A program made the translations under genes and the position numbers. Under the pieces are notes generated by a model, which was not told the DNA's origin, made no database searches, and saw only the letters and a list, made by a program, of their open reading frames with translations. A stretch of 64,000 bases of DNA from assembly GCF_910592395.1 (NCBI RefSeq), contig NC_088313.1, forward strand, positions 374,501 to 438,500. The letters run 5' to 3'. The stretch is from Lineus longissimus (taxonomy: Eukaryota > Nemertea > Pilidiophora > Heteronemertea > Lineidae). Position 1 is the stretch's first letter; the number at the start of each line of letters is the position of its first letter. Below, piece after piece: positions 10,101 to 62,810 of the stretch.

Positions 10101-13100
10101 CTGGCCTCTGCAAAGGTCAGAACATATCACTACATCTAATGCATTGTAAAATCCTGATGTCTAATGTATTCGAGAGTTCAAGTCCTCTATTGATGGCTAT
10201 TGCCAAGTTGCATATTTTATGCTGCCCACTTGTTTCAGAAACCTATCTCCTCGCATGTCTGATCGACTTCTTCACAAACAACTCTGCTGACTACTCCGTT
10301 TCCATCAATGGTGTGAAATCTGGCGAACTTTACATGTCGTACAAGTCCATATTCCAAGATGTGAGGACAGCTGTTGACTGGGTACACATCAAGGTAAGGG
10401 AAGGAGAGAAGGGGGACCTATTGATTCAGATAATAGATTCATTATACATGAAAAATATGAATGGCATCTTCTCCAGCGGTTGTTTGCACCTTGGATTGAA
10501 GTTTGCAAGGAGTCAATAAAAAAGTTGAGTTGGAAAAAGTACTTCTAGCTATTGTTGCTAATGTGTTGTCTACAAACCTTGATATTCAGTTTACATTGTT
10601 TTCGAATCATGCGACTTGATACCCATTTCGATATGATGAGGTCTGACACAATTTCATTATCCTTTCTGCCATTGCTCACCATGGAATATTCCTTTCAGGG
10701 TCCCCTAAAGCCGCTGACGGTTAAAGATGTTGAAAAGTATGTCCACAAGGATGATCGACTCCCAGTTTTGCTGGACAGAATGAGGGCCACTGGTGCTAAA
10801 ACCTTCCTGCTGACAAATAGTGGCTTTACGTACACAGATGTAAGTGACAATCCTATTTTTGCTCAGTGCAGATCCAGGTGTGTATTGCCAGCCTATGGAT
10901 TCCTGGAGACTTGTCTAAAGGCTGATAAGATCTACAGCATATCAACGAAAAGTAGTAGCAACTCATTTTGACCAGCATTTATATCTGCTTTCTCTAATTT
11001 ACAGAAAATCATGGAATTCTTGCTAGACTATCCAGCAAAACCAGGTGAAGAGAAGCGAGACTGGGTTTCATACTTTGACTACATTGTAGTAGATGGCAGG
11101 AAACCACTGTTCTTTGGAGAGGGAACCATTCTGAGGCAGGTCAACAGAGTAAGTGAAGACTAGTTGATTGGGATTTCTTTTTCTTCTTCTGTGTTCTCTC
11201 TGCCTTTGAATTGAAGGTTCCTATCACAGTCCAAGTGCCTTCATACTCGAAAATGACATTATTTTATATCAGTATTTCATTTCTCTTCATTACAGAAAAC
11301 TGGTGCTCTTAAGATTGGTACTCACTGTGGACCACTTCTAAAACATACAGTTTACTCAGGAGGTGAGGCAGTCTACTTGACAGTTTTCTTCTCATCAGGC
11401 TTTAGCTTCCAGATCAACTATCATTTCCAATGTAACTCGTGGCCAATTACTTATGAGTTATCCTGAAATATACAACAGTGCTTGAGCACTTAAGTAAGAC
11501 AGGAATACTTAATGGATATGTCACTAGCACCTTGATTACTATTTTATTCAATATTAACTTGAGAAATGAGGTATATTGCATGTTTATGAGATCAACCAGG
11601 TTACAGTTACATTTGGTTGACCTTAAACCCCCAAGTTTCAAATTTCAAATTGATATTTTGATTATTTCAGGTTCATGTGATGTATTCTCCGAGATGATCG
11701 GAGCGAAGGGCAAGGACGTATTATACATCGGCGATCACATATTTGGCGACATTCTCAAGTCAAAGAAGATCCGTGGTTGGAGGACATTCCTGGTGATTCC
11801 TGAGTTAATGCAGGAATTATACGTCTGGACGGAGAAGAGGGACGTGTTTAGTAAGTTGGAGAATCTTGACCAAGTGTTGGGAGAATTGTACAAGTAAGTA
11901 TTTGAATACCAACTTTCCATATGAAAGATTTCGTAACTTCTATCTCAGCTTGTGACATTTCCTGGCAAGTGTCTGTCTGTGTGAGCTCTGGAAATACCAT
12001 CTCATTATATATGTGCTTGTTCCCCAGATATATAACGTGCATTGCAATCTTAACTGAGTTACAACTTACATGTCTTTGGCTAATCTTGGTGGAGTTGATT
12101 TTACCAAGTTGAATCATTAGAGAATTTGTTTAAGGAATACACTTACAATGTTTAGTTCTGAAAGGTCCGCAGCTTCATTTGTGAATGCTTCTCTTCAGAA
12201 ATTTGGACAGTAGCACCACTGAGAAACCAGATATCAGTAAAGTTCAGTGTGCCATCCGAGAAGTGACGCACGAGGTAGACCAGTTCTATGGAATGTTGGG
12301 CAGTTTATTCAGAAGTGGTAAGTTGAAAATCGACTTGATAAAGAGGTTTTGTTCAAAGAAGTGATGTGTTGAAACTGGACTTAAAGTAGAAGTTTTTCCA
12401 TTGAACTTGAACTGAACAGAATTGTTTGGCAGGCCTTGACTTTGAGGCGGGTTTTTTTCCCCAAAAATTTAGAAATTGGCGATCTACCAGTTGTACAGAT
12501 ACAGCAGTAGCCCACCGTAGCTCAATTGTGTGTCCCAGCTTGCTGATGTCATTAAATGAGTTATAACTTTCCTTTCAGGTTCCCGACAAACATTCTTTGC
12601 CTCCCAAGTCACGAGATACGCTGACCTGTATGCTGCTTCATTCCTCAATCTTCTCCACTATCCATTCAGTTATATGTTTAGGGCGCCACCTATGCTTGTG
12701 AGTAGTACTAGTTGAGAAATGTATCTGCACTTTGGCATTGATAACTAAAGCCACAGTGAACATTTGATAACAGGTTCATGTATATGTATCAGTTGATCAG
12801 AATGTTGGGCAATGGGTTTGGCTTAAGGAGAGGAAGATTTGAACCTTCAATTTATGAATGAAGTACTTATCTGTTTTTGAATATAAAGGTTTTCTTCAAA
12901 CGTTTTGAAATACTTTCTCACCATCACCTTCCTATCTTCACAGATGCCCCATGAGTCGACAGTGGAGCATGAACGTTCCATCAATTTCAACGGCATGTTA
13001 GAAACCGAAAGTCCTATGGCCCCAAGATCAAGAGTCTTCAGTGAAGTGGTTGACAAGAATACTCCACAACTCTCACCGACACCTAAGCGGGTCAAGGTGA

Positions 13101-27433: not shown

Positions 27434-30400
27434 ATGGCAGTTGTTACTCCACCGGTCTCAAACTTGAATAACTTGAATTTGATGATTGCCCTTGGTTTGT
27501 GGGACCCACAATCATCCAGGAAATACCCCAAGAATGAAGGTAAAATACTCGTCTACTGTTCTTTGACAAGTTAGAATTGTCATTACCCAAATTCTGTAGG
27601 CCTACATCATTCATCAGATGGTAAGAAGATACACTTGAGAATGCGATATGAGGTGCTGAGTGTAGGAATGCTGTAATATACTTTGATTTTGACTAGACCT
27701 GACCTAGAAAACCAGCGTCCCCAGAACTCTTAACAATATTATCATCGTCTTTGCTCTTTCCTTTTCCATAATCATCATCTTATCCTTTCAGTGAATGAAG
27801 TAAAATACCAGAGAGTCAAGAACACCTACGGTGGGGGCAGGATGGTGAAGTTACTCAGTGATATCTGCTTGGGCTGCATTGCCAGCAATCTGGACTCGAT
27901 ATCAAACGTCAGACAGTATCTCCCCGCAGTTCACAAAGAGATTCTCCTGAAACGCCTCTCAGATCATGATATGTTGATGACATCGTATCTACCCCATGTG
28001 ACGTATAATTTATTCTCACCGGTGTTAAAACGTGTCGAGTTCTACTATTGTGATCAGCTGACAGATGATGTGCTTGTGAGTCTGGCAAGAAGTGGTTGCA
28101 AATTGAAGGAATTAACTATAAAAAAATGTTCAAATGTGACAGGTATGTTTTTTTCATTGTCAGTACATTGTATATGATTGTTAGAGACTTGCATATAAGC
28201 TGTGATGGCCATATTTTGGATAAGTTGATGAGGGGTCACAAAAAACATGTTTTTGATCTAAATTTGTGTCAGAAGTTTAATATGTTCTTCCTTAGCCCCA
28301 AGAACCTGCTGCCCTATGACCATTGATGACTGGTCCCTCTGACATGGCTCCAAAGAGCATTGGATTACTGCTCAGAATTATTGAGTCTGTTTTGTTTTGA
28401 TCAAATCATAGCACTTGATTTAAGTGAATGATTTCTGATGTTTCTTTCCTTTTCTCACAGAGGTTGGACTTCAAAAGATCACTCGGGGACAAGATGAGTT
28501 GACATACTTCTACATCAAGAGTTTTCCTGGTCTTGGAGACAAGGGACTGATGCATCTCAAATCCAAAAACTTAACTACATTTAGGCTGCAGAATTGTCGC
28601 GATGTAACATCAGAGTGTAAGTAATGAAACTTACAACAGTTTATTTGAGTACTGCAAATGTATTTCTTCGACTTATTGGATTATTGGGACGCACTGTTAT
28701 GGTACTTTTGACACTTGTCAGAATGTTGATCAGTTGATTCAAATCCTCATTATTATCATTGAAGCAGCCCAGTGCTCATTAAAACTCAACCAGTAGGTCA
28801 ACCAACCATGTATTGACTCGACTGGGAGTAGAACTGCTGCTGACTGGTTGTAGCTCTTTTCCAGACCACATAATTGATGGATTAACTCTCTCCAAATAGA
28901 TTTGAACCATGTTAACAGTGTAATTCGCTTCCTATGAAGAACTTTCCTCACTTCTTTGCGCACTTTTCAAACATTCCAGGTATCAAAACAGCAATAACGA
29001 ACAATCCTTTCATCAATGTAGTCAACCTCAATGACTCCGTCAAACTTGATGACACTCTCTTCCCCGTGATAGCAACAACTCTGAGAGAAAACCTGGTAAG
29101 CATGTAACACGGCTACACACTCTGTTGCCTAGTGCTGGGCATAGAATACGGTAAGTTTATATGTGACCAGCACTGTCAAAATAGGCGCTGAAGTTCAAAA
29201 AGAGGTATTGAGTTATTCACATACATGCATGTAGTTCTACTTTGTTAAACTTGTCTGTTTCTGATATCACAGCAGAATACTTCATCGTCTTGTTTTATGT
29301 TTGGAGTTTCTCTAACCATGTTGGTGCAGAGGGACCCGATTGTATTCAATGTCAAATTGGCTGGTATCTTCTGGCCTTGCTGGCTTGATTTTGAAGCCTC
29401 CTCCTAGATTTCTTGCCGTGCAAGGCTGACTAGCAACATTTATAGCGACAAAAATGACCTGCCATTTATCAGGCTTCACATTACATCTTGGGTTATTTTC
29501 TAGATTACATTTGGATGATCATGATTTTCAGGAGAAGCTTCATTGCCGTGACATCCACTGCATGAGTGATTCCAGCCTGTCAATGATCGCTGAACATTGC
29601 CCAAATCTCCACACGCTCGATCTGCTTGGCAGTAGCAAGATAACAAAACTCAGTGTGGAGAAGGTAAGATGAGTAAATCAATTGACCCTGCTGAAACACC
29701 TTCCATTCAGATGGGTTTTGATCAAAACGTTCCTCGTTAAATTGCTAAATAGAAAGATTCAGTAGACCGGTTCATGCCTGTCCCAGCTCAAAGCTTTAAG
29801 AGTTGCGTGGCAGCAGACCAACCTTTCTTCAGTTTGACCTTGTCCTGGTTTTTAATGTGGCATGTCTGAAATCCATCTGTTGGAACAAGTACTTCTTTCC
29901 TGTCATCCCAACAGTGAGTGTCCTAGTCACTGTCAACTCCATATCTTTACCTATCCATATCGTGTTTTCATTTCAGGTGTTTCAGAATTTAAGGAAGTTA
30001 AAGAACCTGGATATTTCCTACTGCCCAAAACTTCAAAACCAACCAGATGTACACGTTTTAACCCAGATGCCTTCAACGTTACAAGAGCTTTCATTATGTG
30101 GTGTATTCATAACCGATAGGGATATTTTAGTCTCGGCTGTTCAGCGATTGGAAAATCTCCGGAAGGTCCGCTTGTGTGGTGTGCCGTCTCTTGATGATGA
30201 TGCACTGGAGGAGGTGAGTGGGGGTATTGTCCGTAAGGATAAATTGTACTTGGAGACCATTCGTCCTCGAGGACGAATCGTCCTCTGGCTTGGTTTGTCA
30301 ATGGACAAGGTGTCTACAGGGTGAATTGGTGGTGATTGTCTGCGGTGTTAATTGCCATCGTTGACTGATATGTAGGTTGCTGTTAGAATACTAATTGACC

Positions 30401-34095: not shown

Positions 34096-34138
34096 ATCAG
34101 CCAGTAACCTCCGCACAGGTTTTGGTCACCAGCGTCAT
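34096..34138 (-). promoter_or_regulatory. SECIS element (selenocysteine insertion hairpin)
   Basis: On the minus strand the core reads ATGA at 34138-34135, then after one C the ten bases GCTGGTGACC. An apical loop beginning AAAA follows, then GGTTACTGGC and TGAT ending at 34096. The two ten-base arms pair without a break (three G-U wobbles). ATGA/TGAT sits at the quartet position and the unpaired AA run opens the apical loop, as SECIS elements require. CC/GG inside the loop could form the extra mini-stem of a form II SECIS. It lies 30 nt beyond the selenoprotein L stop codon and about 450 nt (spliced) from the Sec codons. Confidence 0.85.
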
Positions 34139-34168: not shown

Positions 34169-37103
34169 TCACGCTGTCTTCATTTGCTGCAAAATGGACG
34201 AAAAAACACATGAATTTCTGTTCTCTCAGTAACGAAAAGATAAAACTATACCAACAAATAGAAGGAGAAACACTACACTCTGCATAACAATCTCTCCTCA
34301 AATTTGAAAAAAAGAGGGATCATTTTCTGAAGTAGTTTCATGCCTACTACTCTTTTCGTGCTTTACAATGAAATGACTTGTCCAATCACGCATTCTCCTC
34401 GAATTTGCCACGGGAATAAGGCACGAGATCCATCTGCCTGATGTCACAGTTCATAGAATATGATTTTTAAAAAATCGAAGCGTTACCTGCAAAGTTTGTA
34501 AGAGGGTGTCAACTGTTGGTCTGTCAGGAGCAGTCTTTGAGCGGTGGATCAAAACAAGCTTTCCATCCTTGTCGAGGATGAAATCACCACCCATCTGAAA
34601 CAAAGGAAACAAAGAGTTTTAAAATGTTTCAAAAACTCGGCTTTTATAAATGGCTGTGTCTACATGTGCACATGATGTGGACTGGTTGGGTGTGTTTTAA
34701 ACACAAACCTGTTGGTTGATTTCTGGCCTGGTTACAGAATCATTGGCAAATGACGTAATTTAGGTGCAAAAAGTACCCCTCCACATCTGGTGCTGAAGGT
34801 GTCAAGCTTGATATCAGGACAGGTGCCTGAACTATAATGACTGATAAACTGAAAATCTGTTCCTTCTGGCCAACTTGCAACGTCGCGAGGGAACAAAATG
34901 CTCAGCAGACGTCACTTTGAATATTCTGTAGGGTACATGTAAAGAGAATTCATTACGTCTGCTTAGCATTTGGTATAAAATGCTCACCTGTAAAACGTCC
35001 GACTCCGCCCCTTCATATTGCCCATAAAGCTTCCTCCCAGCAGCCTTCTGCTCAGCATAATATACAAGAGTTGACATCGTCCAGGCCCTGTACACCGAGC
35101 GAGGAAGTCCTAAATAGCAATAGATGCTTCGGTCCTCATCAGCTAGAACATCAAAGGTGCACTCAATGTCTTGTGACCATTTCTTTGCACCCAAGGCAGG
35201 ACCAGTTGTCACGACTATTACCCTGCAGCTAGCGTCTGATAACTCTGGCTACAATGATGATACAGAAAATAAGAAATTTGTCCCCTCCAATACGGATGTC
35301 AATCTTATTCATATACCAGTATGCTCCAACCACAAAAGTGCCACTGATCTAGTGAGGTACAAGCATACCCCAATGATTGGCAGAGCACAAATCTAGCCAA
35401 AGATCAAGGCCACATACTTTCATTCACCAGTCATACGGCCAACATGTCCACTGTACTGTTACAGTTTCACAAAACACCTTCTGGAAAGTCAATAACAGGA
35501 AATCCTCAAAGAACCCTTACCTGTCTTTGTAATAGTTCCTTGACATGGTCCCGTCATGGTAGTCATCCAAAATGGCGGATCAGGACCAGCAAGATGGGTC
35601 CACTTCCGAAGTAGTCCTTTAATACTGCTGTGGCATCAGTTTTGATATTGAGCAAAGGTATGTCACAAGGTCCTGGGGAACCGATATCCAGTTTTGGAAT
35701 GTCCGCTGATTTGTTGATTTGCTTGTCAACGGTGTTGAGGAAGTTGTCATAGTCCTGCTACAGTGAAGAAAAAAATGAAACGAAAGTTAAATTTGGCTTT
35801 GCTAGGTCCTTGGCTTATTGAGCTCATCTGGCTGTGGCTTATCTTACCTTGATTTTGTGGCATTCTATTTCTGAGAGATAATTGAAGTGTTGTTTGTCTT
35901 GCTATAAAAATAACACCCGACAGACAAGATCCTCGAACTCACATAAGAATTGTTACCGAATTCTTGATAAAGCAACCACTATCCCAAACTTGACAACAAT
36001 TAGCAATACTCACTTCTAAGTCTTCAAGTCTATCTGCTGCTTCTTGAACTTCTGGACAACTGAAATGCAAAAATTGATTGAATCAGCACCACTACCTGTG
36101 TCTCGAAACAATGAAGTTGGGAGAAACAAATAATATGTAGTCCATTTGGGTAATTTCTGATGATAGAATGAGAAGGTGAACCTACCTGTAATACTTCTGT
36201 ATTAATGCATCAACATTAGCTCTTGATGTAACAGAAAGACTGAAATAGAAATGATTATATCATGTTTAAAGAGATATCTTAACTTGGATATGCATTCAGA
36301 TATGTCAATCACATGCTGCTTATAACTCTGTTCTGGGTCTCCAACTCATAAGCAGAGCTAAAGATTTTCATCTAGACAGAACCATTACATAGTCTTCTAT
36401 CTTACTTACATGTAGGAGTGAGGGCATGATCAGAATTTTAACCTACCTCTGCAAAAATCTGGCATAAACTCCAATGATGGCACCCAGGGAAGACAGCTTA
36501 TTGGTGACAAAGTCATCCACAGATTCTGAAAAAGAAATGGAATTTCCATTTATGCTAGTCTGTAAATTCATAGGAAAAGTATCTTATCAACTTGGCAGAA
36601 GAGAGTGTAAGCTATAAAATTACAAGTATATTTGTTCAAGGACAAGTGGTCTATTCTTTGCTGCAGCCATATTTGATGATGTGATTTTCTGGACAAAAAA
36701 TGTCTCTGCTGAAAAATTTTACCTGTTTAGATCATACAGTAGAACCTCTCTATCAAGGACACCATCGGGACTGACAAATGCTGTCCTTAATAGAGAGGTG
36801 TCCTGATTAGAGAGGTCAAATTGAATGGTAAGTACCAATTTGGGACTAAAACTAGTGTCCTTGATAGAGAGGTTGTCCTTTATAGAGAGGTGTCCGCTAA
36901 GGGAGGTTCCACTGTACTTTCATAGACTGTGACCTTTTTAATGATGTCATGCAGGTCACATTGTTGTCCTAGAAGTATAGATTTCAGGAGTACAAACCTG
37001 TGACATAATTCTTGGCAGTTTCTAGGATTTTCTCTACTGTGTCTGCTGTCTCCTCCAGACCTGTCACCAGTCGGTCCTTCACCCCATCTGAGGCTGAAGA
37101 CAT
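34169..37103 (-). CDS. SELENOL: Selenoprotein L, peroxiredoxin-like, Sec-x-x-Sec
   Basis: Exons (minus): 37103-36998, 36525-36447, 36239-36186, 36059-36014, 35757-35521, 35248-34988, 34594-34487, 34186-34169. They join in phase to 302 residues. Two in-frame TGA codons, at 35565-35563 and 35556-35554, give RHFGULPURDH, with U160 and U163 where related PRXL2/AAED1 thioredoxin-fold proteins carry CxxC. The domain continues with CRVIVVTTGPALGAKKW, IYCYLGLPRSVYRAW and GGDFILDKDGKLVLIHRS. The first four short exons encode a helical N-terminal extension typical of SelL. A SECIS follows the stop. In the known family the two Sec residues form a diselenide, implying a redox role; the substrate is unknown. 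A conventional gene caller would truncate the protein at U160 or skip the exon. The TGA at 34171-34169 is taken as the true stop because it is too close to the SECIS. Confidence 0.93.
36735..36916 (+). mobile_element. Pogo/Tc1-like MITE, copy 3
   Basis: Full-length copy inside the first SelL intron. It begins TACAGTAGAACCTC and ends GGAGGTTCCACTGTA. Of the four copies, its interior modules are among the cleanest. Confidence 0.8.
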
Positions 37104-43300: not shown

Positions 43301-46300
43301 TCATGTTTATTTGTTATTTCCTGAACTAGACTTTGAAGCGAGTCGTGACTATGAAGCGAGTATGTGGTTTGACGAAGGTCGTTGGGCTGATCCTCTACTT
43401 GTTCCAAAGAAAAAAAACAAGAAAAAAAGAAACAGTTAGTATCGATTTCTATCTCTAACTTCTAGTGGTTTCTGTCTATTTATCTAGGTGCTTTTCGTTG
43501 TCTAATTGTTCTCCTCACAAATTTTACAATGTATCTTTGATTGTTGGTGTAAATCGCTTTCTTGCAGTTTAGAGCTTCCTAATGTGTACAAAACTGCACA
43601 GAGGCTATTGCCAGTAGTCTGAAAGGACCGCTACTACAAACGGGTTTGTGGCAGAATGATGTACATTTCGGGATACCAATTTCAATACAATACAATGGTC
43701 CCTTGTAAGGGCAGTCCGGGGAGATGCCTAGACTGCCCTTACAAGCCCAGATTTATGCATATTTAATGAAAAACGATGGAGGAGATTGCAATAGTGGCAA
43801 ACAGCTCTTTGTCAGTTATATCATTGATGCCCAATTCTGGTATTAATTACAGAATAATAAAACACAAACAGCCTATTAGTATGAATCCCTGCTTATTGTA
43901 ACACTCATCGCCTTCACCTCACAGAATGTCACCTAGGTCCATTTTGGAAAATTCACCTCACGGAATGTGTCATTGTAACAATTGGTGTGGGTGTGATTCC
44001 TGAACTGAACTGAGTCCAATTGACTGCCATGGTGCTTGCATTTGATATAAACACGTCAGTCAAGATAAGTTTGAGGGCTATTGTCTCGGGGGGGTGCTAA
44101 GCCAAGCTGGAGAAGTGAACATTAGCCCCTGATTTCCTTGGGATATAAAGACCATGCACAGGTGGACAGTTGCCAGTGGTTAACTCAACTTCTCTCGGCC
44201 AGTAGCTTTAACTGATAACCAAACTAAAAATTATCATTCATATTGTACAGTTTCATTCATGGGTGCATGTAGATGTATGACGGAATTGTGAAATGGCCTG
44301 TGCATTTAGGCTTGAATTTCTTACATGATGGTGTGTTGTTTTTGATTGTTTATAGTTTTATAGTTTTAAAGTTTTACAGTTTCAAGATGCATGCACATAG
44401 ATTTGTTATGTTGTGTGTCTTCATCTTGCTGTCCATATTTTGATTGCAATAAGCTAGTGCAGTTATTGAACATGTTGAAGAGAAATCCTTGCATTGTCTT
44501 TAGACCAGCTCTTCTTGAACGACAGATCAAAAAATGCACAAGCATTGGCCGTTCATTTAGAATTAGATCCTCATGTGCTGTAATTCTTAACTGAAATAGT
44601 TCATATTAATGTACAGGATATTGCTAATTTTATTGCCACATTCCCATAACCAGCTTTCGTTTCAATTACTGCATGCTCATACATAACAAACTTCAGCCTC
44701 CTTGACTATACTGTGTTGAAGAAGCCAGTAGAGGATAGTCTGTGTCACATAGGTCTAAATGTAAAATAGGCCTGTTGTACACGCACTCCTCATCTGGCTT
44801 TGACACAGTATGTCACTCTAAAACATGTTGTATTCATTGATGTAGCATGTGTGTTGTATCAATGATTACAGTAAAACCTCCCTATTTGTGAGTAAGGACA
44901 CCCTTCGGACTCACTTCTACTGACCTTGATTATACATGTTGAACGGAAACCTGATCACTCAGTCAAATTGAATGAAAATGGCCTGTTGAGAACCAACTTC
45001 GGTGGCATAAAAGTTAGGATGTCTTCTAAGGGAGGTTCCACTGTACAACACATTTGTCATCATTCCCCCTTGTTGGCAGTGAGTTTGACCTTGTGTTGAC
45101 TGGCGTTCTGATAATCCAATCTTAGTTGAATACAGAATGGCTGATGCAAACCAGTTCTCTCTAACAGGCAGACGCAGAAGAAGGAAAAGATTAGACCTCC
45201 TGTGGAGACACTTTCGCCCTGTTTACAATACATCCTTGATTGAAGAGTTTCATGTGTTTGTACTTGTAGGACCTGAATCCACAGTAGCGCCCCCTACTGC
45301 TGCTCAGATTGAGGCGGAGCTAAAGTCTAAAGAGGTGGACGATGCTGCTGAAAATGCTGGTGAGTCATTTTCAGAAATGAGATCTCTCCATTTTGTACCC
45401 CAGCAAAATCATGTCAGAAGAGGGAAAATTACCTTCCATTTAGTCATTGAGTCCTGAAAACTGTATAATAAACTCTAATTTGGTATTTAATAGCATGGGC
45501 AGTGAATATTGCTTCTTTATTCTCAATTTTCAGTTGTTTCTAAAATTTTATAAATGACTTTATTTCAACACATTTCAGCCCTGGAGTCCATACTTACGGA
45601 GGTGCTGAGCGGTTGTAAAGAAACATCAGACCAAGCAATCAGCGCCCAAAATCTTGCTAGGGAGGCAACGGAAAATCACTCACAGCTAATGAAGAAGGCT
45701 ATGGAGGACCCTGATGTGAGTGTCTGTTGCGGTATTTGCCTGTTTCTGAGTGAAACTCATTAATGAATTGTTGCCAACAGAACTGTCAGTGTCAGAGATT
45801 GACAGAAGTTGGTAGTCAGAGTATAGATTAAACAGAATATATTCAGCAACCAAATCTGAAGGTTGTGGCTGACCACCAGAAAAATAGCTCCTGTGATTTG
45901 AAAACTGCCTTGATTGCTGAAATGTACACCAGTATAACATGCTCATATACTTTATTATCGTCATATTCTTACAGTTAGCTTACAAGAACCAGCAGTGGTT
46001 GGCTGTGACTCGGGCCTTGGATGCCAAAAATGATGCTAAGAAAACAGCAGACAAGTTAACTTTAAACGCAAGGTACGCCCCGGTTGTAAATTCTATCATC
46101 CATGTTGCTGATATTTAGAGGCTTGTGATGTTTCTGCTGAGTATTTATGATGGAGAAAACTGTCCTTTGTGTGTTTTCAGGAAAGACATTGAGAAATTGA
46201 AGACTGTGATTGTTGATGCAAAAGAGCATGCAGCTACCAAGTCTAACAAGGCACTCATCTCTGCTCAGGAGGTGCTGGGTAAAATACAGTACGATCTTGA

Positions 46301-48371
46301 TACCACAATCAACAAGGTAAATAAGTGTTCTCATTCGTCAGCAGCTAGTATTTCAACGTTGCTGTTGTACTCTACTCTATAATATGAAGCTGGTTGTCTT
46401 ATTCAGACTGCTTTGGGGAGATGGAAATTTTCATGAATCTGACCCCAGATAAAGAGTCTGCAAATCCCTGGCAGAATTTGACTCTCAAAGGCATTCCCTC
46501 AAAACAGAAGAATGACTTAAGCTGATTACATTCTATCAAAGTGTGACTGTTGACTTTCTAGGTCCATTCTGCTGAATCGATCACCAAGATGTTGAATGAA
46601 TACAAGGACCTGATAGAGAAAGGCAAACAACAGTTGAGGAAGGAATTAGAAAGTGTTTCTCCTGCAGTCACTATGGGTGGAAAAGGTGAGAAATGGTTCA
46701 TGACATTTACATTCAAATCGTTCCAAATGTCCCGAAATTTCATTTCGGATTAGTCTCAAATGCACTCAACATTAGTCTTACAACAATACTCTTAAGTTTT
46801 AAAGGGGATTAATTTTACTTGCAGGAAAGAAACTGAATGAAGAAGAATTGAATAGTCTAATCGCGCACGCCCATCGGAGAATTGAACAACTTCAGCGCCA
46901 ACTTGCTGAGGAGCAGGCGCTCGGACAGAAACGATTGGATGATGCTATGGTCAAACAGAGGAAGGAGGATGAGCGCTTGGCTGGTGAAGTTGTCAATGTT
47001 GAGTTGCAGAAACAAAAGAGTCAGTACGATGTGCAGAAACAGATATGGGTAAGGGCGACTACTGATTTTTTTCTGGAAAAAAATTTGAGAAAAAAAATTC
47101 AGTTTTTTTGTCCCCACAAATGCGATCCTGGCAGAATCTGTGAAAGTTGTCGTGTCTACATCGAAATGACGGGATAATAAGCCATGGCCTTCTTCAAAAT
47201 TGTATCCCATTTCATAATTTCAGGAGGCAATGGCAAGAGAACAGATGGAACAAGAACTCCGCCAACAACTTGCGCGTCAGGCAGCCGCCCACAGCGACCA
47301 TCTGGCAGACGTCCTGAGAATCCAAAGGAAAGAGATGATCATTCAACAGGAGGAGCAGCTGAGGGAGAAGCTGATCAGTGAGCATGTGAGGATACAGAAG
47401 GAACTCGATGGCTGGATTCAGAGACTCAAGGGTATTGAGGCTGCAGTTGAAGGTGAGGGTTGGTTGTTTACAGAGATTCAGCCATTTGTATGTGGAGAAT
47501 ATTGAGTTGCAAGCTGAGCGTCAACAAGGGCATTGTTTGCTCTATAAACAGTATTGGGTGATTGTAATGTAAGTAGGAGGAAACCGGACACCCCGGAGGA
47601 AACCTCTGCTGTCGAAGAGAGTGGCTCTCTCAATCACATCTGGGACGTCAGAGGTGAAAGGTGTTCATGTTTGTGCTGCGCCACTCCAGACCATTTCCTT
47701 TTTTGCTAATAAGTGGTGATGGTTTTCTTATTTTCTCATCTATTGTTTAAGGTCGGGCCGAACAAGAAAAGATCGGCAGAAAAGCACAAGAGCTTTGGTT
47801 GGCCTGTCAGACTTTACAGAAAGCCATTGCACAGGGCAAAGGTGATGGCTCATTCGGTGAAGAAAAGCTCAAACCATTAGCAAACGAATTCATGGCCATT
47901 CGAGAGGCGGGCAACGGCCACCCTTTCGTCAACCAGGTGATCCAGGCAGTTCCGGAAGAAGCCATTCAGCGCGGTGTGTGGACAGAAGATGAACTACAAA
48001 AACGGTTTACAAAAGTTAAGAAGATATGCCGCCGTGTTTCAATGATTGACGAAACTGGCGGGTCACTCCTGAAGTACTTTGTTTCCTATTTGCAATCTTT
48101 GTTCATTGTGGAATATGCCGCAGTGGTGAATGCTAGTGAGGAGCTAAAGGTTGAAGACTTGGACACTTTTAAAATTCTTGCTAGTGCCGATCAGTGTCTC
48201 CAGGACGGTGATTTGATAACTGCTGTAAGATTTATGAACCAGTTGCAAGGGGAACCAAGGCGTGTTGCATCAGGATGGCTAAAGGAAGCGTTACTGTTGC
48301 TCGAGACTCAGCAGGCTGCTCAGTGTTTATTAGGTCATGCGTCAGCTAGGGGTCTAGGGTCATTATTTTGA
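40313..48371 (+). CDS. IMMT: MICOS complex subunit MIC60 (mitofilin)
   Basis: Inner-membrane protein that holds crista junctions. Exons: 40313-40354, 40779-40843, 40997-41227, 41474-41564, 41912-42014, (43330-43434 optional), 45270-45359, 45579-45715, 45975-46072, 46181-46316, 46562-46685, 46825-47048, 47224-47452, 47752-48371. All phases close. The product is 729 residues, or 764 with the optional exon (human 758). It has an Arg/Ser-rich mitochondrial presequence, one Gly-rich membrane segment (LKLVGLTTLGLAGTTGYAW, about residues 45-63) followed by a Pro-rich linker, and a long coiled-coil middle with LNSLIAHAHRRIEQLQRQLA and RQAAAHSDHLADVLRIQ. It ends in the C-terminal mitofilin domain, with RGVWTEDELQKRF, RRVSMIDETGGSLLKYF and FMNQLQGEPRRVASGWLKEA. 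The C-terminal domain lies almost wholly in the last exon. Confidence 0.95.
42461..42690 (+). mobile_element. tRNA-derived SINE, plus orientation
   Basis: A-box-like GTGGTGTAGTGGCTCGGAC and B-box-like CTGGTTTGATACCC are spaced like a tRNA. A unique body follows (cttactccacctaggagtg). It is the same family as 8995-9135, on the other strand, and lies in an IMMT intron. Confidence 0.65.
43330..43434 (+). other. IMMT: Candidate cassette exon of IMMT, 35 codons
   Basis: Bounded by ttatttcctgaactag and a GTTAGT donor, 105 nt, phase 1 on both sides, so inclusion keeps the frame. It would add an acidic/aromatic stretch (DYEASMWFDEGRWADP) and then a Lys-rich run (PKKKNKKKR) between the linker and the coiled coil. 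Vertebrate IMMT also varies in this region, but I see no sequence match. Real exon or chance frame is open. Confidence 0.4.
43702..43745. repeat. Perfect 15-bp hairpin in an IMMT intron
   Basis: CTTGTAAGGGCAGTC at 43702-43716 is exactly complementary to 43731-43745, with a 14-nt loop. It may be a decayed element or a structured RNA. Confidence 0.7.
44867..45045 (+). mobile_element. Pogo/Tc1-like MITE, copy 4
   Basis: The most diverged copy: TACAGTAAAACCTCCC to GGGAGGTTCCACTGTA. It lies 224 bp upstream of an IMMT exon. Confidence 0.7.
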
Positions 48372-57500: not shown

Positions 57501-60500
57501 CGGCTTTACCAAGCTGTGCCTCTTGGAGGTACGCACATGGTGCTACAACCCGGTCAGTGGTCTGAGGTACAGTAACTAATGACTTCCCTCACCCAGGCTC
57601 GTTTAGTCATGTCCTCCATACAAACAGGTCGTTTCCTCAAAGTTTCTAAACGTCTCTCATACTCAAACGGACGGAGAAACTTCCTTCATAGGCAATGCAT
57701 TTCACGAGATCAATGAAGAGCATTGATAATATTAAACAATTGAACTCATATTAAATAGGCACACGACAGACACAGCACATTTCAAACTGCTTTAAAATTC
57801 TACCAATGCATACTTAGAGCCATTCTTCCTTGAAAGGAACTGTCTTTTCTTCAAAATACGCGCTTGTTTAAACAAGCTGGCGGCACTTTTATATTCTGTT
57901 TACTGGCAATTTGTGACGGACAAACCAGGCCTATCGAATTCATACTCTTTTAATAATGGACTCAATAATTCGCCCTGAGCATAGTTTAAGAAAAATAATG
58001 CATCAACGTTTTTAAATGCCGCGGCTTTTCAAATCGTGTAGGTATTTTCGGGGTGATTTCCAATAACATGATGCATTGTATTGATACAGGGACAACAGTA
58101 CTGGAAATATAGTCTGTTTTGAAATACATTTGTCTATCAACATGGGATTATCATTCACCACGGGCGATATGATGCCCATTGAAACAGAATGCAGAGTTGA
58201 AAGTCCTGGCGTGGTGATAAATGTACATCAAGTTTTTGTCGTGCGCGACACAACGAAAACTCATTTATTGATATTCCTACTTATGGATCCAATGACCCAA
58301 ATCTCGTGCATTATTCTATAACAGAATTTGATGTAAAGTCTCCCTTAAAAGGCATGTTATTCATGTGGACAAATAGAGTGATCTATTGAGAAAAATATCA
58401 CAACGGCTTATCCGTACGTTTTGTTGTCATTTGGAAGGTCGGAAACGTGGTTGTCAGGAAGCTTTTGGTGTGTTGGATATTGTCACCTCAAGTTCCCTTC
58501 CTTAGGAGCAGGAGTTTCAAGAAACGGTTTTTGGATTAGTTGAGTGCAAGCAACTATGAGAGTTCTTTCTCTGCGGGTACTTTGATGCCGCCAATTTTGA
58601 CTGGTGACTGACGTGAAAGTGGACTTTCCGCACTGTTTTAGAGAAATAACCGTTTTTAAGTGACAAGGAAGTGAACAAAATCCGTTTGTAACGGTATCAT
58701 AACGAGTGGAATATTGAAATTCGATTTGCAGAAACTTTTGCAGAAATTTTCTCGGAATTTATATTTTCAAGCATATGACTCGATGGGGTTTCGAATCTGT
58801 TTACCGTGCCTATTCAGTAAGTGATCTTGGTCATACATTGGTTTAGGCCATATCGTTTTAAACACTGGTAAACTATTTGAAGAGTTAATCTGGATTAGAT
58901 AGTGACACTAGAGGGATCTTCCTTTTAATGACAAGGCCTTGCCAAGGACAAATAGCAAATGTTTCTTCAGGTTAAGCAAAGACTAATCGGACATTGGTAA
59001 ATAATCCAATTGCCTAGCTTGTGAAGCTTCCTTTGAATATATTTTCTATACGCTTGCACATAATTTACACTGGCTGTGACAGAATTCAAGCAAAAGACAT
59101 TGGCAGAGGATCTGTGTACGTGACCCATCACCACCTTGTTTGATCTGTCAATTGTATTGAACATTTGAATAGGACTATAAAGCATACACTTCAAATATAG
59201 ACATTCAGATTGGAAAAATACCATCGGAGGCCGTGGGCATAGTTTTTAAATCTGCTCGATATAGATGGATATATGAACTCTGGTTGCTAAGGATCCTGCC
59301 TTACGGCCTACGGTTTGTTTTCAAGTCTTGTTGTATTCTCGCCGTATTGAAACATTGGATTGGAGGATGTCGCACCACATTATGACGAACGAGGTTCACC
59401 GTGCCGCGGTGCCGAGATTGAAGTTCGATACAGATCTCGGAGCAGACGATCACGATCATTACGTCTGCAACATGGACTGTCGAATCTGTCAAGAACGATC
59501 CAAACAAAACCATCGCGTACCTTTGACGGATCGCTATAAAACCACGTACGAGAGATCATTTACGAAACCTAAGGACATACAGAATGCTTTCAGACGATTT
59601 GAGGAAGAGATGGGCATGCTGTCGAACCGTTACGGTCCTGATGCCTTCCGCACGAGGGAACAAGAGCTACACGAAATGGAGATCGATCGGGCCGAGTTTC
59701 CATTCGGGAGGAAGCGGATGTTTTATCACAACAGGCCAGGAGAGGGCGACAAAAATAGGTATTATGAGTATGAAAACCCCGAAGAGGAGATGAAACACTT
59801 CTACGAGCGCCATCACCATGATGATCATGAACATATGCATGATCAACGGGGCCCTCCCCAACAAGGAGCAACGCAGCGCCGGTATTCACCACCAGATAAC
59901 TTTCCAGAAACATACGTCCCGACGATCGCCACCAAGCATATTGACCACATCAACAAGGGCACTCAATACAGCGAGCCGCGCTCGGCGACTAAGCTGGCGC
60001 AGAACGGCATGATGCAGACGATGTCGCCGAGGGAGCGCGGCCCAGCCAGGGAACCAAGCCCTCTTAAGCTTCACCAGGACTCCCCGGTCCTGCCAAAGCG
60101 TGATGAAGACTTCCTAAAGGAGTTAGACCGGGAGTTCTACATTGAGCCCAAGACGGACCGAAGTGACGGATTCAGGCGCTTAAACCGAAATGACATCCTC
60201 CCAATTGCTGAGAACCTTGGTATACGGTTTGCTGACTGGATGTCAGGCCCGAATATCCAGTCCATGCGGGTTAACGAGCTTGTGCTCCCGACAGCTCATA
60301 ACGCCCATTCGTACAAAATCCACGATGCTTTCCCTCTAAACATGAACCACATCATCTCTCAAGCATGCGACGTCTACGACCTCCTTCTCGGCGGGGTTCG
60401 ATGTCTTGAGTTGCGACTTCACAACGACCAGTGGTGCAGCGTCCAGCGCTTCAGGACAGTCCGTATCACTGAACTCGCCAACCTTGTCGGGAAGTTCGCC

Positions 60501-62810
60501 ACAGACTACCCCACAGAGCTCGTGTTCCTGGACATGCAGAACGAAAACAATCAGTTGGGCAGTGACCACATCAGCATACAGAAACTCTTTAACGACACGT
60601 CAGGGCAAAGAGTTGCAAAGAATCTAACAGATAGCACGACGGTTGGGGAGTTAGTCCGCACACGACGGAATATCATCCTCATATGGGCCGGCAAAATGGA
60701 CCAGCTGAGCATCGTGGATTCACAGTATGAAACCAGTGGTTCTAGCCCAAGGTTAGTTGTGGAGAAGTGCCAACGCTGGGCCCTGAAACAGCCCATAAAA
60801 ACCAACCACGCGGGCTATCTGAAGATGCTATCCTGCTATGTCTCGCCGCCAAAGGACGCGTACGTCATCGGTGGAAACGTTCGAGTCTTGGATGCGGATC
60901 TTCGCCAACATGCGGAAAGCTGTAACTTCCTTGTGAAGTCTTTTATCCTATCTGACGATATCTTGGATAGGGTACACTTCATCAAGATAGATTTTGTCCA
61001 TACTGAGATTATTTCGAGGATCGTGGATTATAACATGAAGGTGAACTCGCGGAAGAGGGCGGGATACTTGTAGGCGAAAACTTGTGGGAGATTAAATGTA
61101 ATGTACTTGTATATCAGCCGTGTTACAAACGTTAGAAAATTAAGTGAGTTTTTTATACGATATTTTAATATGGATTTAAGACAGGAGCTGGCTACATTGG
61201 GTCGATATAGGATTAGGCAGTTAAGAACAATAGGCCGATGTGTGAGTGAGTGTGACGTTGAACCGTAAAAACGTAAAAGCCAAGAATTTTGGCACACATA
61301 CATGTACTTTCTCACTCCCGCCACGACTTGATACCTCATGACCGTCTTTCAAAGGATAAACTGACGAGGTTATGTGGACATCGTGGCTATCAATTTGTAA
61401 GGATTACTGCAAAATAGATAGCTTCATACTCTGGATTAGTGCATACTGTACGTAAAGCCAGACGTCCCTTAATGCGCCGTGATCGGGTACATTCTTGTGC
61501 TGTGACTGAAATGTATACTAAAAAGAAGTTGATAATGCTGAATACAAATAAATACCACTATTCGTATATTGTAATTGACATACATGTACGTATCACGATA
61601 GCTGAAGCCAATTACTTTCATCTTGGATTAACCATCTTTATCGATAATAAGCCTGCACATCAATCTTTAATGAACCGTTGGTAGGCAACGGAATAATACC
61701 ATCATTGATACCAATATGTATTTTGTATATCCTTATTGATACATATGTATATCATGAGCCTTCTGTAGTTCGCCACATTTTCGCGCCTCTCTCCTCTTGC
61801 GAACTGACTGTTCCCTAAAACATTTTGTAATTGTACTCTACAAATATCATGACAGCCATCTTACTGTATTTGTTTGTGTTTATTTATCAATCAGTATAAA
61901 CTACATGTAATGTATGCCGAGTCAATAAAAGAAATTTAGCTGATATATCGCTGCCTTAATACAATAACTACGAACGACTCTGGCAGTGCGTGGAATCGTT
62001 TAGAATTCTTGGACTTCCGGTCGTATTGTCTAATGAGATGTCCTTACTTCAGACTTCAAAAATAACGGTTAATGACAAGGTTTTATGATGGTCGTTTTCA
62101 GGACCTTCCGTTGGTGGACAGATCGTGAAGTCGGTCGGGTTCCCGTGGCTTATACGAGGGATGGCCATAGTGATCGTCGTTTATAGTCCACTTTGCTACT
62201 TCCTGAAGAACCCGCCCGGAAAGGAGGAAAATAAGGCAAGTTCAATTGAAGGATAAAGGCTCTACTGGTGTTCTTTTGCAAACGCAACCTCTGCCGCCAC
62301 AAGGGCTCTGCAGTAGCTCCTTGGCTTAGAAAGGCCGCAGTCCCTGTCGACAATGATGAAAAACGTGGGTGCGTTCATTAGCGCTGCAATTCAGAAGTCC
62401 AGCTTTCCGGAAATGTCGGCACGATTATCATAAACACAAAATAGCGGCTGGGCTACAGCGCCTCTGCAGCAGGAGTGAGGTACTTTGGGACCACTGACTC
62501 ATAATATTTCCACTAGAGTGTCCGAGGTGCAAAGTATTTGAATCTGTTATGCTCTGTTATTCTCTAAAGTAGGCGGTTGTGGTCTCTAATGAACCAGATA
62601 CCTTAATTTGTCACAATACAATAGGGACACACTTTTTCCAGGGGGACATTTGAACTGCTACACCGGCTATTAAAGGCAAAACGTATCGACATCTTGTCTC
62701 TCTTTCAGTCAATCCTAGCGGGGGAAGAAAATGGCCACGCAATGTATACCAACGAAAAAGAGGCGTCGTTCAACTACTCCAGATTCAAGGGAGATGATGT
62801 CACTCCCTAA
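51539..62810 (+). CDS. SLC18 vesicular amine transporter-like protein
   Basis: Proton-coupled vesicle antiporter of the VMAT/VAChT family. Exons: 51539-51653, 51785-52073, 52864-52922, 53729-53812, 54338-54430, 54757-54846, 54953-55057, 55306-55401, 55921-55999, 56431-56482, 56740-56803, 57151-57270, 62102-62235, 62709-62810; 493 residues (human VMATs 514-525). TM1 keeps D31 ([14 protein letters not shown]). The luminal loop has N-glycosylation sites N70, N86 and N91 and four Cys. TM2 keeps K118 ([10 protein letters not shown]). TM7 has E292 in [10 protein letters not shown], and TM10 has D379 (IIDASMMP). TM11 reads YAIAQVAI: Q406 replaces the Asp found in VMAT and VAChT. The tail [14 protein letters not shown] resembles the VMAT2 tail. 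The intron after 62235 begins GC. VMAT-like is favoured over VAChT, but a divergent paralog with another substrate is possible. Confidence 0.9.
52101..52130. repeat. Perfect 12-bp hairpin after SLC18 exon 2
   Basis: AAGTGCGTCACA and TGTGACGCACTT are separated by 6 nt, starting 28 bp past the exon 2 donor. It could affect splicing of this long intron; that is inference. Confidence 0.75.
53838..53942. repeat. Inverted repeat directly after SLC18 exon 4
   Basis: GAGGTTTAGATTTTGA (53838-53853) pairs with TCAAAATCTGAACCTC (53927-53942) with one mismatch. An inner gaacgagaa/ttctcgttc pair extends the stem. Overall about 105 bp, pre-miRNA or MITE sized. Confidence 0.7.
55514..55600. repeat. Two adjacent perfect hairpins in an SLC18 intron
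   Basis: The first has 14-bp arms (ATTTGAGACAAAAA, 55514-55527 with 55532-55545) and a 4-nt loop. The second, beginning 2 bp later, has 14-bp arms (CATCGAGTGTTAAT, 55547-55560 with 55587-55600). Confidence 0.75.
56652..56707. repeat. Perfect 16-bp hairpin before an SLC18 exon
   Basis: TGTCAAAGTAGCGAAT (56652-56667) is exactly complementary to 56692-56707, with a 24-nt loop. It ends 32 bp before the exon starting at 56740, so it overlaps the branch-point region. Confidence 0.8.
57271..59366 (+). other. SLC18 intron, 5' part, upstream of the nested PLC-X gene
   Basis: No supported exon. It must hold the nested gene's promoter if that gene is independently transcribed, but I see no clear TATA/initiator pair just upstream of 59367. 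Confidence 0.4.
59367..61073 (+). CDS. Intronless PLC-X-domain protein nested in an SLC18 intron
   Basis: 568 residues from ATG 59367 to TAG 61073 in one exon; a second ATG lies five codons on. The C-terminal half (about 290-565) matches the PI-PLC X-domain fold of PLCXD proteins: [21 protein letters not shown], then TAHNAHSY with H311 as the likely first catalytic His, [10 protein letters not shown] with R350, [11 protein letters not shown], and IKIDFVH near the end. The second catalytic His, normally in a V-H-G motif after the Arg strand, is not seen; the matching stretch reads QWCSVQRF. The protein may bind lipid without cleaving it. The first half is unlike PLCXD: charged, with [10 protein letters not shown] and a His/Asp-rich patch ([11 protein letters not shown]). 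Higher GC than its surroundings and lack of introns suggest a retrocopy or an old single-exon gene. Confidence 0.85.
   Translation: MSHHIMTNEVHRAAVPRLKFDTDLGADDHDHYVCNMDCRICQERSKQNHRVPLTDRYKTTYERSFTKPKDIQNAFRRFEEEMGMLSNRYGPDAFRTREQELHEMEIDRAEFPFGRKRMFYHNRPGEGDKNRYYEYENPEEEMKHFYERHHHDDHEHMHDQRGPPQQGATQRRYSPPDNFPETYVPTIATKHIDHINKGTQYSEPRSATKLAQNGMMQTMSPRERGPAREPSPLKLHQDSPVLPKRDEDFLKELDREFYIEPKTDRSDGFRRLNRNDILPIAENLGIRFADWMSGPNIQSMRVNELVLPTAHNAHSYKIHDAFPLNMNHIISQACDVYDLLLGGVRCLELRLHNDQWCSVQRFRTVRITELANLVGKFATDYPTELVFLDMQNENNQLGSDHISIQKLFNDTSGQRVAKNLTDSTTVGELVRTRRNIILIWAGKMDQLSIVDSQYETSGSSPRLVVEKCQRWALKQPIKTNHAGYLKMLSCYVSPPKDAYVIGGNVRVLDADLRQHAESCNFLVKSFILSDDILDRVHFIKIDFVHTEIISRIVDYNMKVNSRKRAGYL
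61924..61929 (+). terminator. Poly(A) signal AATAAA of the nested PLC-X gene
   Basis: AATAAA about 850 nt after the nested gene's stop and 170 bp before the next SLC18 exon. Its presence inside the SLC18 intron supports a separate transcript unit. Confidence 0.55.

Follow-up and report, generated by a model that had tools for sequence, protein, structure and literature searches.

A nemertean selenoprotein L gene with two in-frame TGA codons and a candidate SECIS element in Lineus longissimus

Introduction

Animal selenoprotein L (SelL) was reportedly described by Shchedrina et al. in 2007. It carries two selenocysteine (Sec, U) residues in a UxxU motif. Here we analyse a SelL gene on the minus strand of a 64,000-nucleotide (nt) stretch of the ribbon worm Lineus longissimus (NCBI RefSeq assembly GCF_910592395.1, contig NC_088313.1, positions 374,501 to 438,500; hereafter the window, in whose own numbering all coordinates are given). 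The coding region of this gene, 37103-34169, contains two in-frame TGA codons, which are very probably recoded as Sec.

Passages in the published literature place SelL in Amphimedon, Trichoplax, Nematostella, Capitella and Branchiostoma, and not in Lottia (PMC3473315); in Ciona, where it is known from expressed sequence tags (PMC2874816); and in fish, where a single selenocysteine insertion sequence (SECIS) serves both Sec residues (PMC3316567). Passages elsewhere report SelL as lost in Platyhelminths (PMC3828610) and describe the family as common to prokaryotes and eukaryotes (PMC2398784), and part of a 2026 prokaryotic review covers peroxiredoxin (Prx)-like oxidoreductases with UxxU and UxxC motifs (PMC13188914). 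In the open-licence literature, which excludes most subscription papers, we found no report of SelL in Nemertea, a ribbon worm or Lineus, and none of SelL in a mollusc or oyster.

Results

The spliced SelL frame encodes 302 residues. TGA occurs in it at codons 160 (35563-35565), 163 (35554-35556) and 303, the last being the terminator; TAA and TAG are absent. If two stops were placed at random, they would fall on exactly codons 160 and 163 once in 45,451 placements, the number of codon pairs among 302. An initial annotation of the window, made from its letters, had proposed that one exon reads through both TGAs with intact splice sites and phase on either side. Both parts of that proposal were borne out. 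The two TGAs are the sole stops in the frame of this exon (coding exon 5, 35521-35757, 237 nt, phase 0-0), and the exon is flanked by AG on its 5' side and GT on its 3' side. Its acceptor, TAG/CAG/GAC, is a possible NAGNAG site, alternative use of which would remove one glutamine.

The whole coding region comprises eight exons, and all seven introns are GT-AG. Coding exon 1 (36998-37103, phase 0 in and 1 out, GT donor) starts at a predicted ATG at 37103-37101, its N-terminus being roughly collinear with homologues in the alignment. Coding exons 2 (36447-36525), 3 (36186-36239) and 4 (36014-36059) each have AG and GT sites and align with homologues. Beyond the Sec exon, AG and GT sites also bound coding exon 6 (34988-35248), while coding exon 7 (34487-34594) holds most of the conserved QMGGDF motif. 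The last coding segment, in exon 8 (34169-34186), ends with the terminator TGA at 34171-34169, and the same exon continues as 3' untranslated region (UTR). The frame after both UGAs is conserved through exons 6-8, which implies selection on the full-length product.

The predicted protein belongs to the SelL family by both domain and full-length comparisons. It passes the NCBIfam model NF040769, 'SelL-related redox protein' (143.9 bits, cut-off 120), and matches Pfam AhpC-TSA_2 (PF13911) over residues 170-281 (57.7 bits, cut-off 27). A search of 5.8 billion proteins, with a length limit of 0.55 × 302 = 166 residues, returned nine relatives, seven of which span 95-97% of the query. They include a Patiria miniata protein that is 40% identical over 97% of the query, as well as proteins from amphioxus and from fish, one of the fish proteins (P0008) being named selenoprotein L. 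When NF040769 was applied to seven of them, P0002, P0006 and P0009 scored above the cut-off, and P0003, P0004, P0005 and P0010 matched below it. Of 18 columns that are invariant among the nine relatives, 17 are kept in the Lineus protein.

The redox motif, which reads RHFG-U-LP-U-RDH in the Lineus protein, is covered in six of the nine relatives, as CLPC, WDPW, WLPW, CLAS (twice) and CLLC; the sequences of P0003, P0007 and P0010 lack the motif region. In the alignments, cysteine (Cys) stands in relatives at codon 160, the first motif position, and Cys, or serine (Ser) in P0006 and P0008, at codon 163, the second. The CxxC relatives are P0002 and P0009, and the two CxxS (CLAS) relatives are models of one Channa gene. 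The WxxW relatives are most simply read as TGA-x-x-TGA translated with tryptophan (Trp), and the deposited C letters may be either real Cys or the database's writing of Sec. The initial annotation had placed the motif where PRXL2/AAED1 relatives have a redox CxxC. Alignment with the relatives put the Sec codons at the CxxC/CxxS positions, and alignment with human prostamide/PGF synthase, a PRXL2 member, matched U-L-P-U to its CxxC. Sequence alignment, together with a model of the Patiria relative (40% identical) used as a stand-in, predicts a thioredoxin/peroxiredoxin-like fold in which the motif occupies the place of the catalytic CxxC. The SelL identity given at first thus stood, on the basis of NF040769, full-length animal homologues, the CxxC alignment and a SECIS-like element shortly past the stop codon, with the refinement that SelL-related genes carrying TGA at these positions are found in bacteria as well.

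We identified these bacterial genes in a genome scan for the conserved DxxQMGGD-type pattern, so that the sample consists of sharers of this pattern. Of the 95 matches, 14 encoded a relative. All 14 loci have TGA opposite Sec160; opposite Sec163, five have TGA and nine a Cys codon. Neither TAA nor TAG occurred in the aligned stretches. The constancy of Sec at the first position suggests that the first Sec is the attacking residue. The bacterial proteins (NF040769) have the redox domain in common with the nemertean SelL, at 31-43% identity over the aligned part, and their alignments start at query residue 118-151. From the first upstream methionine to the aligned start there were at most 34 residues in 13 of the 14 loci, and L011 had no such methionine (GTG and TTG starts were left out of this count). 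With alignments starting so late and so little sequence upstream, the helical region at the N-terminus seems to have been added in animals. Bacterial SECIS elements lie inside the coding region. In 11 of the 14 bacterial loci (L001-L014), a CAGTTG begins 24 nt past the first TGA, resembling the apical loop of such an element; it also encodes a conserved Gln-Leu and may reflect protein constraint. In a viral collection, 26 stretches matched a pattern and none encodes a relative.

A candidate SECIS core lies at 34096-34138 on the minus strand, beginning 30 nt past the SelL stop codon; the initial annotation had not located a SECIS. The transcript would read AUGA-C-(10-bp helix)-AAAA-...-UGAU, with the AUGA quartet, apical AAAA and closing UGAU laid out, by alignment, as in the Rfam SECIS_1 consensus. 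A strict pattern requiring the quartet, an unbroken helix of 9-12 bp in which G-U counts as a pair, AA and UGA matched only here in the 64 kb on both strands, where 0.075 matches per window were expected from 40 first-order Markov simulations. Taken together, its position, its strand and its core motifs make it a convincing SECIS candidate.

Measured along the spliced transcript, the distance to the SECIS core is 459 nt for the first Sec codon, 450 nt for the second and 30 nt for the terminal UGA. A passage in PMC3316567 gives a minimum spacing for UGA recoding of 51-111 nt and a range in mammalian genes of 207 to 5207 nt. The 30-nt spacing is below that published minimum, which would explain why the third UGA terminates. 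The terminator TGA at 34171-34169 is also a natural test of the SECIS spacing rule.

The initial annotation had further expected automated annotation to split or truncate this gene. The nine relatives included no full-length SelL from Lineus, though the database searched does contain its MIC60, and this agrees, indirectly, with that expectation; a model ending at the first TGA, with 159 residues, would fall slightly short of the search length limit, and in this search truncated and missing models are indistinguishable. Flawed annotation of vertebrate selenoproteins is treated in a 2026 paper (PMC12822975), and the nemertean SelL illustrates how genes of this type can go missing from automatic gene sets.

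The window holds several other genes, from an assembly given as 391 Mb in a passage on this species, the bootlace worm (PMC8593623). Upstream of SelL on the same strand is a ribosomal protein L35 exon (Pfam Ribosomal_L35p, 39182-38769, minus), probably of the mitochondrial type. MIC60/mitofilin lies at 45270-48371 (plus); with eight exons joined, its C-terminal 551 residues are 100% identical to Lineus longissimus MIC60, and it is 49% identical to that of Tubulanus polymorphus, the other named nemertean among the matches. Exons of a 5'-nucleotidase family protein (PF05761) occupy 10549-11897 (plus). Open frames at 27734-30321 (plus) have weak leucine-rich-repeat matches, both below Pfam cut-offs, and are likely a leucine-rich-repeat gene convergent with SelL. 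A long single open frame runs from 59277 to 61073 (plus), and its part 59364-61073 (569 residues) had no Pfam match and one relative at 76% identity.

Discussion

The locus is, with high confidence, a nemertean SelL gene whose two UGAs are recoded as Sec via one 3' UTR SECIS to make a two-Sec redox enzyme. We infer that the gene is expressed and that Sec is inserted at both UGAs, whose starts are nine nucleotides apart, through the single SECIS, whereas the third in-frame UGA, 30 nt before the SECIS core, would terminate translation. In the product, a helical region at the N-terminus would precede a peroxiredoxin/thioredoxin-like domain that has U-L-P-U at the start of a helix. Most likely, the first Sec would attack the substrate and the second would resolve the intermediate, the selenol pair cycling to a diselenide and back in a two-electron redox enzyme.

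Several observations weigh against this reading, most of them concerning the SECIS. The strict pattern was composed after the element had been seen. With one helix mismatch tolerated, the pattern occurred three times in the window where 1.725 were expected, so that it is informative only in its strict form. The Rfam SECIS_1 match (34144-34086) scored 21.5 bits against a gathering score of 35; its E-value of 0.13 refers to a 551-base search with all 4,227 Rfam families. When the whole 64 kb was scanned with all Rfam families, SECIS was absent at E<=10, ten other matches being listed, and a scan of the whole window at the gathering threshold gave no match. The canonical helix had 10 of 10 pairs in the minimum free energy structures of 59, 201 and 301 nt and 0 of 10 at 91 and 131 nt, lengths at which a shifted pairing is slightly favoured; its pair probabilities were about 0.43-0.77. 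Folding of the 3' region was no more stable than that of shuffles (z -0.13 and -0.91), and free energy was therefore not used as SECIS evidence; the folding programs ignore the non-Watson-Crick quartet. Finally, the six relatives that cover the motif comprise two WxxW, two CxxC and two CxxS, and Sec at both sites is thus not universal among them as deposited.

UGA decoding as Sec is generally inefficient. This, with the SECIS score below the Rfam threshold and the mixed folding, would fit a locus in which one UGA alone is recoded efficiently, or in which most product is a truncated 159-residue protein and the UxxU enzyme is minor. We consider this unlikely, although it is the best surviving alternative, because the frame is conserved past both UGAs through exons 6-8 and because, in a passage on SelL, one SECIS serves both Sec residues (PMC3316567).

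A different use of the Sec exon is less probable again. The exon is symmetric (237 nt, phase 0-0), so that it could be skipped in frame, and the resulting 223-residue isoform would be free of UGA and would lack the redox motif. Skipping might then respond to selenium and decide whether a diselenide enzyme or a protein without Sec is made, but we regard such a switch as quite improbable.

The TGAs could also mark a pseudogene, in which a Cys-type PRXL2/SelL gene has decayed at both Cys codons. One base change turns TGT or TGC into TGA, and CxxC relatives exist (P0002, P0009). Decay would, however, have had to strike precisely the two redox positions and leave 302 codons in eight exons, with GT-AG introns, without another stop or a frameshift. 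The gene also retains 17 of the 18 invariant columns, a SECIS core stands downstream of its stop codon, and bacterial relatives carry TGA at the same positions. A pseudogene is therefore very improbable.

We know of no variant nuclear code in nemerteans. Reading of TGA as Trp or Cys in the Lineus genome, with no selenium involved, is the least probable explanation: two relatives are written with W at the Sec positions, but the SelL gene's own terminator is TGA, thiol chemistry would not be supported by Trp in the redox CxxC, and a passage in PMC8744743 reports a Sec-rich SELENOP in nemerteans.

The SelL gene with two recoded UGAs can be set beside three kinds of known system. With bacterial SelL-related proteins it has the redox domain in common. 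The PRXL2 family, represented by human prostamide/PGF synthase (PDB 9us9, 9usa), has the same AhpC-TSA_2-type fold and motif position, but the human enzyme has CxxC in place of UxxU and is 22-23% identical to the modelled Patiria relative. With animal SelL, it has in common UxxU in a Prx-like domain, one 3' UTR SECIS, here a candidate, and the N-terminal region of about 115 residues of the starfish, amphioxus and fish relatives. The nemertean gene differs from animal SelL in details only, namely the LP filler of the motif, the candidate SECIS core 30 nt after the stop and the UGA terminator. Together with the published annelid SelL, it supports the view that the lophotrochozoan ancestor had this family; if SelL was ancestral there, the blank for Lottia in the relevant passage of PMC3473315 would reflect either loss or an assembly gap. 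The nemertean SelL is well formed and belongs to a known family, already published from sponge to fish and from bacteria, and the complete UxxU gene with its candidate SECIS places that family in Nemertea, a modest taxonomic extension with no new mechanism.
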